Shown here: piece by piece, positions 3,753 to 8,876 of the stretch
How the letters are laid out: each line of letters begins with the position of its first letter
How positions within the stretch are numbered: the stretch's first letter is position 1
Assembly (NCBI RefSeq): GCF_003751225.1
Contig: NZ_RJKE01000001.1
Location: 1,674,001 to 1,738,000, forward strand
DNA length: 64,000 nt
From: Actinocorallia herbida
GTDB taxonomy: Bacteria > Actinomycetota > Actinomycetes > Streptosporangiales > Streptosporangiaceae
Direction of reading: 5' to 3'
Notes under the pieces: model-generated
The model's input: only the letters and a program-made list of their open reading frames with translations
Told to the model about the DNA's origin: nothing
The model's database searches: none
Position numbers and translations under genes: made by a program

Positions 3753-4994
3753 ATGAGCGGACCGGGGGACGGATCGGATACGCGCACGCGCCGTTGGCCG
3801 GTGCCCGCGCGCCTGCTGAGGCTGCGCCGCCGCCGCGGCGCGCCCGAGGCCGACGGGATCGTCGGCACCGCGCGGGTCGACAAGCGCACCAAGGACCTCG
3901 CCAAGCGGCTCCAGCCCGGTGAGATCGCGGTGATCGACCACGTCGACCTCGACCGCGTCGCCGCCGAGTCGCTGGTGTCCGCGGGCGCGGCCGCCGTGGT
4001 GAACGTCGCGCCGAGCATCTCCGGCCGCTACCCCAACCTCGGCCCGGAGATCCTGGTCGAGGCCGGGATCGCGCTGGTCGACGACGTGGGCCCCGACATC
4101 TTCGAGAAGGTCCACGAGGGCGAGACCCTCCAGATCGACGGCGGCCGGGTCCTCCTGGACGGGGAGCTGCTCACCAAGGGCATCCGGCACACCGCCGAGA
4201 CCGTCACCGAGGCCGTCGAGGAGGCCAAGGGCAACCTGTCGGTCCAGCTCGAGTCCTTCGTCGCCAACACGATGGAGTACGTCAAGAAGGAGCAGGACCT
4301 CCTCATCGACGGGGTCGGCGTCCCGGACGTCACAACCTCCTTCGAGGGCAGGCACGCGCTGATCGTCGTCCGCGGGTACCACTACCGCGAGGACATCGCC
4401 ACGCTGCGGCCCTACATCCGCGAGTACAAGCCCGTCCTCATCGGCGTCGACGGCGGCGCGGACGCCCTGCTCAAGGCCGGATACAAGCCCGACATGATCG
4501 TCGGGGACATGGACTCGGTGTCGGACGAGGCGCTGACCAGCGGCGCCGAGATCGTCGTGCACGCCTACCGGGACGGCCGGGCGCCGGGCCTCCAGAGGGT
4601 CGAGGACCTCGGCGTCACCGACGCCGTCACCTTCCCCGCGGCCGCGACCAGCGAGGACTGCGCGATGCTGCTCGCCGACGACAAGGGCGCCCAGCTCATC
4701 GTCGCGGTCGGCACCCACATGAACATGGTCGAGTTCTTCGACAAGGGCCGCGCCGGCATGTCCAGCACGTTCCTCACCCGGCTCCGGGTGGGCAGCAAGC
4801 TGGTCGACGCCAAAGGCGTGAGCCTGCTCTACCGCAGCCGGATCTCCTCCTCCGCGCTGCTCGTCCTGGTGGCCGCCGCGCTCGTCACCATGGTCGCCGC
4901 GCTCGCCGTCACCCCCGTGGGCCCGCTGGTGCTGTCGAGCCTGGTCGAGCGGTGGCACTCCTTCCTCTTCTGGCTGACCGGACTCTTCACGTGA
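3753..4994 (+). CDS. steA: cytokinetic ring protein SteA
   Basis: The protein has 413 residues and a thiamine-pyrophosphokinase-like fold: VIGVDGGADALLKAGYKPDMIVGDMDS resembles the diphosphate-binding part of that family, here split as GVDGGADALL and DMIVGDMDS. One C-terminal transmembrane segment lies at about residues 365-390. SteA together with SteB is linked to septal cell separation in corynebacteria. No thiamine function is expected, since the neighbours are division and envelope genes. A CAGGAT box at 3738-3743 ahead of ATG 3753 may be a promoter -10. The stop overlaps the GTG of steB, implying coupled synthesis of the pair. Confidence 0.88.
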   Translation: MSGPGDGSDTRTRRWPVPARLLRLRRRRGAPEADGIVGTARVDKRTKDLAKRLQPGEIAVIDHVDLDRVAAESLVSAGAAAVVNVAPSISGRYPNLGPEILVEAGIALVDDVGPDIFEKVHEGETLQIDGGRVLLDGELLTKGIRHTAETVTEAVEEAKGNLSVQLESFVANTMEYVKKEQDLLIDGVGVPDVTTSFEGRHALIVVRGYHYREDIATLRPYIREYKPVLIGVDGGADALLKAGYKPDMIVGDMDSVSDEALTSGAEIVVHAYRDGRAPGLQRVEDLGVTDAVTFPAAATSEDCAMLLADDKGAQLIVAVGTHMNMVEFFDKGRAGMSSTFLTRLRVGSKLVDAKGVSLLYRSRISSSALLVLVAAALVTMVAALAVTPVGPLVLSSLVERWHSFLFWLTGLFT

Positions 4995-5962
4995 TCGATT
5001 TCCGCTACCACCTCGTCTCGATCGTCGCCGTGTTCCTGGCACTGGCGACAGGACTGCTGCTCGGCTCGACCAGCGCGGTCCAGGAGGTCTCCCAGACCGT
5101 CGCGGACAAGAGCCTGCAGTACATCCAGAAGAACAACGACGAGCTGCGCGCGCAGGTCACCGCGCAGGACGAGCAGCTCGCGGGCCAGGAGCAGTACGCC
5201 CAGGTCACCGGGCCGACCGTGCTCGCCGACCGGCTGAAGGACTCCTCGGTGGTGTTCGTGCTCGCGCCGGGCGCCAGCGAGCAGACCCGCACCGGCCTGG
5301 ACGCCGCGGTGAAGTCCGCGGGCGGCACGGTGTCGGGCTGGGTGTCGCTGACCGACGCCTACCTCGCCGACGGCGAGGCCGAGGTGGTCGACCAGCTCGC
5401 CGAGCAGCTCAAGCCGACCGGCCTGACCTACCCCGAGGACGCCAACGCCTACGCCAAGGCGGCGGCGCTGCTCGCGCACGTCCTGGTCACCAAGGACACC
5501 GAGAAGGCAGGGCACGAGGACGTCGCCTCGGGCGCGGTGCTGGAGGCGTTCAAGCAGGCCGGGCTGCTCACCACCAGCGGGAACCCCGCGGCCCGCGCCA
5601 CGCTGGCGCTGCTGGTCGCGCCGGGCACCCCGTACGCCGGCGACGGCGCGGAGACCGACAACAACGCGCTCGTCGCGCTGGCCGGCTCGCTGGACGGGGC
5701 GGGACAGGGCACGGTCGTCGCGGGCAACACCGCCTCGGCCGAGTCGGGCGGGCTGCTGTCGGCGCTGCGCTCCGCCGAGATCGGCGAGCGCGTGTCGTCG
5801 GTGGACACCGCGGACACCGCCACCGGGCAGATCGTCGGCGTGCTCGCGCTGAACGTCGAGATGAACGGGGAGTCCGGCGAGTACGGTACGGGCTCAGGGG
5901 TCAGCGGCTTCCTGCCCGACCCCCTCCCGCCCGTTCCCGCCGACACCGGAGCCAGGCCGTGA
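4991..5962 (+). CDS. steB: SteB / MctB family membrane-anchored protein
   Basis: The protein has 323 residues and starts at GTG 4991 within the steA stop. The N terminus IDFRYHLVSIVAVFLALATG is a signal anchor typical of the DUF3186 family. It is followed by a coiled-coil stretch (about residues 35-65, rich in Gln/Asp/Glu) and a long extracytoplasmic domain. Mycobacterial MctB was described as a copper-related channel, while in Corynebacterium the homologue works with SteA in cell separation. The steA overlap favours the latter role here. The C terminus is Pro/Asp-rich (PDPLPPVPADTG). Its stop overlaps the next GTG start. Confidence 0.85.
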   Translation: MIDFRYHLVSIVAVFLALATGLLLGSTSAVQEVSQTVADKSLQYIQKNNDELRAQVTAQDEQLAGQEQYAQVTGPTVLADRLKDSSVVFVLAPGASEQTRTGLDAAVKSAGGTVSGWVSLTDAYLADGEAEVVDQLAEQLKPTGLTYPEDANAYAKAAALLAHVLVTKDTEKAGHEDVASGAVLEAFKQAGLLTTSGNPAARATLALLVAPGTPYAGDGAETDNNALVALAGSLDGAGQGTVVAGNTASAESGGLLSALRSAEIGERVSSVDTADTATGQIVGVLALNVEMNGESGEYGTGSGVSGFLPDPLPPVPADTGARP

Positions 5963-7302
5963 AACGACTTCTGATGGGCGCCGTGCTCGGCGCGGCCGCC
6001 GCCCGCACCGCCTATGTCGCGCTGACGCGCAGGCCGCCCGGCGCGGGCGGGCGCGAGGGCGCGGAGGTGTGGGGGCGCACGAACCACCGGGGCGAGGCGG
6101 TGACCCTGCTGGAGGGCCCGGCGTTCGCGCTCGGCAGCGCCGCCGCCGCGCTGGTGCTGCCCGGCACGCCCGGCAGGCTGCGCGCCGCCGCGCTGGTGGC
6201 GGGCGCGGGTTCCGGCGCGTTCGGCGCCTACGACGACCTGGCGGGCTCGGCGTCGTCCCGCGGGTTCAAGGGCCATCTGACCGCCCTGGCGCGCGGCGAG
6301 GTCACCACCGGCGCGGTGAAGATCCTCGGGATCGGCGCGAGCGGCCTCGCCGCCGCGGCGCTCGCCGGATCGCCCGCCGCCACGCCGCTGCGGCGCACGC
6401 TGGACACGCTGCTGAACGGCGCGATCGTCGCCTCGGCCGCGAACCTGATGAACCTGTTCGACCTGCGGCCCGGCCGCGCGATCAAGGTCGGCGTGCTGAC
6501 CGGCGCCCCGCTCGCGCTCGGCGCGGGCTCGGCCGTCGTCGCCGCCCCCCTGGGCGCCGCCTTCGCCCTCCTGCCCGAAGACCTCGGCGAACGCGCGATG
6601 CTCGGCGACGCCGGCGCCAACTCCTTCGGCGCCCTCCTCGGCCTCGCCGCGACCCGGCTGGGCCTCCCCGCCCGCGTCGCCGTCCTGGGCGGCCTCGTCG
6701 CCCTCAACGGCGCCAGTGAGTACGTCAGCTTCACCAAGGTCATCCGCGAGAACCCGCTGCTCGACCGCCTCGACATGCTCGGCCGCCGCCCGGTCGAGCC
6801 CCCGCCCGCCCCCGAGCCCGCGGAACCCGAGACCGTTTCCCCCGCCACGGCCACGGTCTCCCCCCGGTCCGGAACCGGAGAGACCCCGGCCGGGCCGGGC
6901 GCCGCGCCCAGGGAAACGGTCCCCGACGAGGCGGCGAAGACCGCCCGCGACGTGGAAACGGTCTCCCCCGACGCGGAAGCCGTTTCCGCCGGGGCGGAGC
7001 CGGTCTCCCCGGGAGCCGCAACGGTGTCCGCCGACCGGGCGGCCCCGTCTCCCGAGACCGGGCCGGGTGCCGCGCCCGCGGACACGTCCTCCGCTGAAGC
7101 GGAAACGGTTTCCCCGGATGCGGAGACCGTTTCCGCTGGGCTGGAGACGGTCTCTCCCGACGCGGAGACCGTTTCCGCCGGGGTGGGCACGAGGCCGGGG
7201 CGGGGCGAGACGGCGTCCGGGGAGCCGGAGGAGGAGTCCGTCGCTGAGGCGGGCGAGCCCGGCGACGGCGTGGCGGGGCCGCGGGAGCAGTCGGGTTCGT
7301 GA
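5959..7302 (+). CDS. MraY/WecA-like membrane glycosyl-phosphotransferase with heptad-repeat tail
   Basis: The protein has 447 residues and a GTG start overlapping steB. Residues 1-280 form a multi-span membrane domain with polyprenyl-phosphate sugar-1-phosphate transferase landmarks. These are TNHRGEAVTLLEGP (41-54), the acidic pair YDDLAG (91-96), NLMNLFD (162-168) and MLGDAGANSFGALLG (214-228). True MraY is usually encoded in the dcw cluster, so this is a paralogue whose substrate I cannot name. The position between steB and murJ suggests envelope lipid-linked precursor work. Residues 291-447 are a low-complexity acidic tail of ETVSxxx heptads, which I know of in no MraY relative. The stop overlaps murJ. 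Confidence 0.78.
   Translation: MKRLLMGAVLGAAAARTAYVALTRRPPGAGGREGAEVWGRTNHRGEAVTLLEGPAFALGSAAAALVLPGTPGRLRAAALVAGAGSGAFGAYDDLAGSASSRGFKGHLTALARGEVTTGAVKILGIGASGLAAAALAGSPAATPLRRTLDTLLNGAIVASAANLMNLFDLRPGRAIKVGVLTGAPLALGAGSAVVAAPLGAAFALLPEDLGERAMLGDAGANSFGALLGLAATRLGLPARVAVLGGLVALNGASEYVSFTKVIRENPLLDRLDMLGRRPVEPPPAPEPAEPETVSPATATVSPRSGTGETPAGPGAAPRETVPDEAAKTARDVETVSPDAEAVSAGAEPVSPGAATVSADRAAPSPETGPGAAPADTSSAEAETVSPDAETVSAGLETVSPDAETVSAGVGTRPGRGETASGEPEEESVAEAGEPGDGVAGPREQSGS
6829..7290 (+). repeat. 21-bp periodic palindrome array encoding ETVSxxx heptads
   Basis: Reading in frame from base 6829, the tail of the MraY-like gene divides into about 22 units of seven codons, such as ETVSPAT, ATVSPRS, ETVSPDA, EAVSAGA, EPVSPGA and ETVSAGL. 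Near-palindromes of the form GGARACSGTYTCC begin at 6828, 6849, 6912, 6954, 6975, 6996, 7017, 7101, 7122, 7143 and 7164. All spacings are multiples of 21 bp. The best copies are GGAAACGGTTTCC at 7101 and GGAGACCGTTTCC at 7122 and 7164. A second-order repeat puts GPGAAP in units 4 and 12. Because the unit is palindromic, the opposite strand also reads ETVS in one frame. Confidence 0.9.
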
Positions 7303-8876
7303 GGCGGGGGCTTGGCGGGATCGCCGGGGCCGCCGCCCTCATCGCGGTCCTCACGGTGCTGGCCCGGATCGCGGGGTTCGGGCGGACCTTCGTGTTCTCC
7401 CAGACCGTCGGGGCCTCCTGCCTGAGCGACGTGTACTTCGCCGCCAACCAGATCCCGAACATCATGTTCGAGATCGTCGCGGGCGGCGCGCTGGCCAGCA
7501 TGGTCGTACCGGTCCTCGCGGCACCCGTCGAGCGCGGCGACGCCGACACCGTCCGGCGGACGGCCTCGGCGCTGCTCACCTGGGTGCTGCTCGCGCTGGT
7601 GCCGCTGGCCCTGGTCGTCGCGCTGGCGGCCGGGCCGATCATGGACCTGCTCAGTCTCGGGCAGGTCGAGTGCGACGCCGAGGCGTTCCGGGCGCTGGGC
7701 ACGCGGATGCTCGTCGTGTTCGCGCCGCAGATCGTCTGCTACGGGCTCGCCGTGGTGCTCTACGGGGTGCTCCAGGCGCACCGGCGGTTCACCGGACCGG
7801 CGATCGCCCCGCTGGTGTCGAGCCTCGTGGTGATCGGCGCCTACCTGGCCTACGTGCCCGCGATGGCCGGGAACGACCCCGACGATCTCACGTCGGTGCC
7901 GCGGACCGCCGAGCTCGTGCTGTCCGTGGGCACGACCCTCGGGGTGTCCGCGCTCGTGGTCGTCGCCGGGCTGGCCGCGCTGCGGCTGCGGCTGGGGTGG
8001 CGGCCCGCGCTGCGCTTTCCCGAGGGGGTGGGCGCGCGAGTGCGCGGACTGGCGCTCGCGGGCCTGGCGACGGTCGTCGCCCAGCAGGTGGCGATGCTGG
8101 CGATCCTCGTGCTCGCCAACCAGGGGTCGGCGAAAACGCTCAGCCAGTACAACTTCGCCTGGGCGGTGTACCTGCTGCCGTGGGCGATCCTCGCCGTCCC
8201 GATCGCGACGAGCGCGTTCCAGGCGCTGTCGGCGCGCGCGGACGACGCCGCGGAGTTCGACCGGACGGCGGCCTCGACGACCCGGGCGGTCGTGTTCGCG
8301 TCCTGCCTGGGCGCGGCGGGCATCGCGGCGATCGCGCGGCCCGTCGGGGTGGTCTTCAACCTCGACAATCCCGAGGGCGCGGTGGTGCTCGCGCGCGCGC
8401 TCGTCTGCTTCGCCCCCGGGCTGCTGGGTTACGGGCTCGTCGCGCATCTCGGCCGCGCGCTCTACGCGTGCGGCAAGGGCCGCGCGTCGGCCTGGGCGAC
8501 GGTGGCGGGCTGGGGCGTCGTGCTGGTCGCCGACGTGATCCTGGCGTTCGCCCTCCCGGACGACTGGGTCGCCGCCGGGTTCGCCCTCGGCAACACCCTC
8601 GGCATGACCGTCGCGGGCGTGCTCCTGGCCGCCGCGCTGGTCCGGGTCCGGGGCCGGGCGGCGCTGGCCGGGCTGGGCCGGACCCTCGCCGTGGGCGTGG
8701 TCGCGGCCTGCGCGGCGGGCACCGCCGGATACGCGCTGGCCCGGGCGCTCGGCACGGGCGGACTGGGCCAGAGCGTCGCCTCCGGCGCGGCCTCGGGCCT
8801 CCTGGCCGTCGCCGTCTTCGCCGCCATCGCCGGAGTCGCCTCCCGCCGCGACCTCAAGGCGCTCGCCCGCCGCTGA
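7299..8876 (+). CDS. murJ: MurJ-type lipid II flippase (MOP/MVF family)
   Basis: The protein has 525 residues and about 13-14 hydrophobic segments. It begins RRGLGGIAGAAALIAVLTVL and carries the family-typical RIAGFGRTFVFSQTVGAS and QIPNIMFEIVAGGALASMVVP near the N terminus. The MVF/MurJ family moves lipid-linked peptidoglycan precursors across the cytoplasmic membrane. It lacks the large C-terminal kinase-like extension found in mycobacterial MviN. The GTG start lies in the stop of the MraY-like gene, so transferase and flippase are co-translated. This would fit a dedicated lipid-linked precursor route, though that is inference. A long hairpin follows. Confidence 0.85.
   Translation: MRRGLGGIAGAAALIAVLTVLARIAGFGRTFVFSQTVGASCLSDVYFAANQIPNIMFEIVAGGALASMVVPVLAAPVERGDADTVRRTASALLTWVLLALVPLALVVALAAGPIMDLLSLGQVECDAEAFRALGTRMLVVFAPQIVCYGLAVVLYGVLQAHRRFTGPAIAPLVSSLVVIGAYLAYVPAMAGNDPDDLTSVPRTAELVLSVGTTLGVSALVVVAGLAALRLRLGWRPALRFPEGVGARVRGLALAGLATVVAQQVAMLAILVLANQGSAKTLSQYNFAWAVYLLPWAILAVPIATSAFQALSARADDAAEFDRTAASTTRAVVFASCLGAAGIAAIARPVGVVFNLDNPEGAVVLARALVCFAPGLLGYGLVAHLGRALYACGKGRASAWATVAGWGVVLVADVILAFALPDDWVAAGFALGNTLGMTVAGVLLAAALVRVRGRAALAGLGRTLAVGVVAACAAGTAGYALARALGTGGLGQSVASGAASGLLAVAVFAAIAGVASRRDLKALARR

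Follow-up and report, generated by a model that had tools for sequence, protein, structure and literature searches.

Low-complexity protein tails built of in-frame tandem repeats are a general and well-known kind. The C-terminal tail discussed here, encoded in the window (the whole 64-kb stretch of Actinocorallia herbida DNA that was analysed), consists, like them, of head-to-tail copies whose period is a multiple of three and whose length varies among relatives. It shares with such tails the Pro/Ala/acidic make-up and the periods in multiples of three, and the large length differences between relatives that mark them are found in this family too. It differs from them in that its heptad repeat is long and regular and in that its codons are, by happenstance, nearly palindromic. 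In the literature on disordered tandem-repeat tails, no paper combining most of the features sought was found.

The body of the protein is compared below with MraY, which has 10 helices and five cytoplasmic loops and both ends of which are periplasmic (PMC4790310). The gene at 5959-7302 is flanked upstream by recN, steA and steB/mctB and downstream by murJ (Table 1). In Mycobacteriales, SteAB is a septal complex that acts on RipA (PMC12977500), and the neighbourhood of the gene is therefore one of cell-envelope work.

An MraY-like protein family flanked by steB and murJ

The gene order is shared by the relatives whose loci were read: all 29 have steB upstream, and 27 have murJ downstream. A murJ match is absent from the two others (L023 and L032), and the sequence of L023 ends inside the gene. 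The murJ ORF of A. herbida scores 176 bits against the NCBIfam model murJ_mviN, which is under the cut-off of that model (236).

Table 1. Features of the MraY-like gene, its repeat tail and its neighbours, in window positions
Feature	Position	Strand	Basis and remarks
steB/mctB, directly upstream of the MraY-like gene	4952-5962	+	Pfam MctB, 2.2e-74; listed ORF, true start may be later
MraY/WecA-like membrane protein gene (putative)	5959-7302	+	ORF, 447 aa, GTG start
Conserved core, aa 1-277	5959-6789	+	Profile/homology in family genomes
Pro/Ala/Glu-rich lead-in after the core (PVEPPPAPEPAEP)	6790-6828	+	Read directly
Heptad array, 17 x 21-bp units in exact register	6829-7185	+	6 ETVS, 8 TVS, 5 TVSP
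First GPGAAP of the second-order repeat	6892-6909	+	Unit 4
Second GPGAAP	7060-7077	+	Unit 12; 168 bp (8 units) downstream of the first
Best-preserved stretch, 42-bp dimer ETVSPDA-ETVSAG(L/V)	7090-7178	+	2.1 copies; TRF score 120
Acidic tail end, periodicity lost	7186-7299	+	Holds AGEPGDGVA
murJ	7299-8876	+	Pfam MurJ, 1.3e-50; start overlaps stop of the tail gene

The core was found in 316 of the 341 family genomes (E ≤ 0.001, own genome counted), is 59-87% identical to that of 29 relatives, and has six residues (D92, D93, N162, N165, D168 and D217) that are invariant among the 30 core sequences. The Pfam model Glycos_transf_4 (PF00953) matches 23 of these 30 members at E ≤ 1, the best at 4e-5; the A. 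herbida core itself reaches 13.1 bits (E 0.096), under the curated cut-off of 27, and no Pfam or NCBIfam model scores above its cut-off for this family member at 5959-6789. When the family profile was compared with the PDB, MraY stood at the top with weak E-values of 0.14 and 0.15 and nothing scored better; the partial alignment (E 0.14) covers MraY 178-299 and brings the NxxNxxD and GDxG segments into register with MraY. The initial annotation had called the protein MraY-like, and these weak profile matches bear it out; the product may thus be described as an MraY/WecA-like membrane protein of putative transferase kinship.

Like the MraY/WecA-type transferases, the core is hydrophobic, and it has apparent DD, NxxNxxD and GDxG-like motifs that follow one another as they do in those enzymes. 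Its DD motif is presumably the DD of MraY, and we take the invariant motifs to correspond to the cytoplasmic active-site motifs of that enzyme. The core is shorter, with 277 residues compared with 360 in the matched MraY chains, its sequence contains no HHH loop, and it seems to stop short of the last MraY helix. This family merits study more than the array that one of its members carries.

The hydropathy profile did not separate the helices, and single-sequence AlphaFold gave an unusable model (mean pLDDT 41), in which the tail is without secondary structure. By eye, the stretch after D217 resembles two helices, after which the core ends. Taken together, the cytoplasmic-like motifs, the weak alignment with MraY and the apparent lack of the last helix place the tail probably in the cytosol. 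It had also been proposed to be disordered and acidic: the acidity stands, with a net charge of -24, a fraction of ILMFWYC residues of 0.006 (0.6%) and low complexity, and the disorder is probable, judging from the sequence. Most of the relatives' tails of at least 15 residues carry a net negative charge as well (61 of 70), with 5 positive and 4 neutral.

The heptad array and its probable origin

The tail is likely to be explained by in-frame tandem duplication within a weakly constrained, disordered, acidic spacer. The coding frame and the heptad repeat in the 3′ part of the gene are as first described, and so is the recurrence of GPGAAP in units 4 and 12; the 21-base units that begin at 6892 and 7060 are identical at 18 of 21 bases. 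The estimate of about 22 ETVSxxx heptads was too high, since the register holds 17 units without a single indel, of which six have ETVS exactly and 11 were judged ETVS-like by eye. Over 6829-7290, identity at a lag of 21 is 0.53, compared with 0.38 +/- 0.02 when the codon order is shuffled (0 of 2000 shuffles reach it), and lags of 42, 63, 84, 105 and 126 are likewise high. Beyond the array, between 7186 and the stop codon (7302), any periodicity is very degenerate or gone.

The array of near-palindromes at 21-bp spacing is also real and far above chance. With up to two mismatches, GGARACSGTYTCC occurs at 23 sites in the window, compared with 8.6 +/- 3.1 after shuffling (0 of 100 shuffles reach 23), and 10 of the 23 lie at 6828-7176, spaced by exact multiples of 21 bp, where at least eleven had been counted before. 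An assembly artefact, named at the outset as a possible cause of the repeats, is unlikely because the units differ among themselves and the genome is a single contig of 9.8 Mb. Queried with the tail protein, that genome gave, beyond the tail, matches to the reverse strand of the tail DNA (E 0.002 and 0.12) and two others that were weak (E 0.34 and 0.61). The opposite strand also reads ETVS heptads because ETVS is strand-symmetric.

A 21-bp unit encoding ETVSxxx would have been duplicated in frame, lengthening the tail in A. herbida, and copying would also have involved 42-bp dimers and a 168-bp block. The exact register without indels, the 42- and 168-bp copies and the common use of the rare codon GTT count in favour of duplication, which we infer to be the mechanism. 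GTT makes up 5 of the 13 Val codons of the array, compared with 0.3% of 286 in six genes of the window, and GAA makes up 5 of its 13 Glu codons, compared with 8% of 176 in window genes. GC3 is 0.83 in the array and 0.96 in the core, and its mean is 0.92 in 20 relatives' tails of at least 45 residues. If the tail has any role, it would be that of an acidic spacer under loose constraint, in which length and charge outweigh sequence. On this evidence the ETVS heptad array is best explained by the ordinary expansion of repeats within a hypervariable tail, unusual as it is to the eye.

Synonymous and non-synonymous change between units had been put forward as a measure of selection on the peptide, and it gives a divided answer. 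At the three linker codons pN/pS is 1.02, which indicates no protein constraint, whereas at the four ETVS codons it is 0.63 over all 17 units; the value of 0.20 obtained over 11 units is biased, as these were picked for their likeness to ETVS. The low ratio at ETVS could reflect constraint on this motif at the protein level. At about 0.5, pS between units exceeds the values of 0.33 and 0.40 between the cores of A. herbida and its congeners, so that the array shows no clear sign of being younger than the split from the congeners; the excess would call for an array older than that split and lost twice, or for a tail that changes faster.

C-terminal tails of relatives

Tails were read in 88 relatives, comprising the 29 with loci, three of which are from outside the family (L022, L031 and L034), and 59 others taken from among the higher-ranked core matches, with some entries skipped. 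Two tails run off their contigs (L023 and L058), which leaves 86 closed tails. The two available congeners, whose cores are 87% and 81% identical to that of A. herbida, end 16 and 12 residues beyond the core, and the closed tails have a median length of 32 residues and a maximum of 126. TVS occurs in none of the 88 tails (86 closed and 2 open), and Pro/Ala-rich starts are common among them. The ETVS tail is species-specific; the congeners and the other relatives examined have shorter, different tails. Because both congeners lack it, a conserved role of the array is contradicted.

Some relatives also have periodic tails, whose periods and sequences differ from those of A. herbida. Tandem arrays detected by TRF (at least 3 copies, score at least 70) are present in six of the 86 closed tails (L054, L059, L065, L067, L079 and L089), with periods of 15, 30 and 39 bp, and three of these repeat tails, which stand at the equivalent position, have 126 (L089), 109 (L079) and 100 (L054) residues. 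Since the units differ, by eye, from one another and from ETVS, the repeats of the relatives would have had separate origins. Short repeats are thus a recurring feature of the C-terminal tail in this family, and in some members a conserved terminal peptide follows them.

A terminal peptide resembling (D/E)DAFRPxVPPQxGPAG(D/N)GVAxxPA is shared by many tails of g82, a genus-level group. Of 87 tails, 33 contain VP(P/R/A)Q. These include 32 from g82, and the presence of the motif in the remaining one (L026) is probably due to chance; 21 of the tails with VP(P/R/A)Q also have the GV(A/T/G) part. In L079 and L089, the repeats precede the terminal peptide. The tail of A. herbida has AGEPGDGVA beginning 17 residues from its end. 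Scored with 9-mers of the terminal peptide, it reaches 12.0, compared with 16.4-23.4 in the 21 tails, and 94 of 20000 shuffles score as high; the next tail scores 5.8 if L073 and L063, seemingly members that the expression failed to catch, are set aside. This weak match hints that the array may have grown inside the same spacer.

Among the tails of the g82 type, which are otherwise hypervariable, those of L052, L053, L062, L064, L089 and further relatives carry an end like DAFRPxVPPQxGPAGDGVAxxPA, which is a candidate binding motif.

Kinase sites, DNA sites and RNA pairing as alternatives

The ETVS units could be imagined as a multi-site kinase target, with (D/E)xETVS phosphorylated on its threonine by actinobacterial Ser/Thr kinases of the PknA/PknB type and recognised by FHA-domain proteins, linking the MraY-like protein to MurJ and division control; taken jointly, these proposals are quite unlikely. 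In PMC7164672, Thr sites whose phosphorylation is lost when PknA is depleted are enriched in acidic residues at -1 and at -3 to -6, and the flanks of ETVS fit this preference, with E at -1 in all six copies and D or E at -3 in five of the six. Another study places pThr sites sensitive to PstP close to acidic residues, close to the ends of proteins and in membrane-associated proteins, and reports that MurJ phosphosites rise on knockdown of the pstP operon (PMC6554272), which also suits a kinase target. However, the Pro preference described in PMC7164672 is at -1 and +2, whereas TVSP has Pro at +3, and for depletion of PknB no position was significant there. The kinase proposal is further weakened by the lack of TVS in the relatives' tails and by its dependence on a cytosolic side that is itself only probable. 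A kinase-site role of the ETVS units confined to this species is chemically plausible, with no conservation behind it. That a rapidly evolving regulatory spacer has been turned into a multi-site phosphothreonine array of (D/E)xETVS units that serves as a readout for kinases and FHA proteins is decidedly improbable; if it were true, the readers of the array would control lipid II synthesis and division.

The palindromes at 21-bp spacing, ten near-consensus sites just upstream of murJ, might instead constitute a protein-binding DNA array, an operator or a sponge that controls, for example, murJ, a reading that we consider very improbable. In G-GAR-ACN-GTN-TCN, four of the six arm pairs of the 13-mer (2-12, 3-11, 5-9 and 6-8) are dictated by the amino acids of ETVS once its serine is a TCN codon, which leaves the R:N pair and the outermost one free to vary. 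Perfect palindromes occur as often as expected when synonymous codons are redrawn at the codon usage of the window (1 observed, 1.1 expected), and of the six exact ETVS units only two have complementary bases at the inner pair that is free. The summed arm score of 69 is marginally above both nulls, which give 61.9 +/- 4.1 with redrawn synonymous codons (242 of 5000 as high) and 65.1 +/- 2.5 when the tail's own codons are permuted (462 of 5000 reach 69).

Near-consensus units (at most 1 mismatch) are in clearer excess, with 9 observed compared with 2.5 under the synonymous null (0 of 5000 as high) and with 6.0 when the tail's codons are permuted (58 of 5000 as high). This excess is expected if the units are copies, as copying of rare codons gives it, and the consensus was read off the same units. 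The palindromes are mainly a by-product of the ETVS codons, and neither selection on palindromy nor the DNA-binding array that the initial annotation had entertained is supported. A striking palindrome array can thus arise from the coded peptide, ETVS being nearly strand-symmetric.

Searches for the sites elsewhere point the same way. With up to two mismatches, GGAAACSGTTTCC is commoner in the genome than its reversed control (119 sites, the array counted among them, compared with 50), which would suit a DNA element; yet the exact consensus occurs at seven places in the 9.8 Mb, four inside the array and the other three each single, and all five adjacent pairs of units (at most 2 mismatches) in this genome lie within the array. 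A search for arrays outside the gene in the genomes of relatives had been suggested as a check. Among 337 other family genomes, seven have one adjacent pair each, and the reversed control has no pair. One of the seven is the congener G002, in which the pair is on a different contig from the gene. Any such match reads an ETVS-like pair in one frame by construction, and the pairs are taken as coincidental because their contexts (L109-L113 and L115) look heterogeneous by eye, with, for example, an AMP-binding-like protein in L111. No palindrome site with up to two mismatches is present in the 86 closed tails of relatives (8808 bases). On the synonymous nulls, the pattern searches of the genome and the family and the tails of relatives, a DNA array was rejected as the main explanation.

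It is likewise highly improbable that the array works as RNA, with units that base-pair among themselves and modulate how the overlapping murJ is translated. The array RNA is slightly more stable than its synonymous permutations (-229.8 compared with -216.1 +/- 7.1 kcal/mol, 5 of 150 as low), and the start of murJ overlaps the stop of the tail gene, but the folding effect is smaller than 2 sd and the array is missing from relatives with an identical gene order.

Two adjacent units were also sought in a collection of 84,980 species genomes, which may omit records of the own or a very near genome, and eight stretches were found; a scan of viral sequences gave two. Two of the eight were read by eye (L038 and L040), and their frames encode unrelated proteins, repeat-rich and membrane-like in the first and GNAT-like in the second. 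In L040, from Winogradskya humida, ETVSAAD-like heptads lie at about 2406 in the GNAT-like protein (by eye), which is unrelated to the MraY-like gene. In L038, from Sphaerisporangium fuscum (L114 is identical in sequence), there is a long RTE-rich acidic repeat region at about 2298, and two ETVS are read on the minus strand of the membrane-protein-like ORF (by eye).
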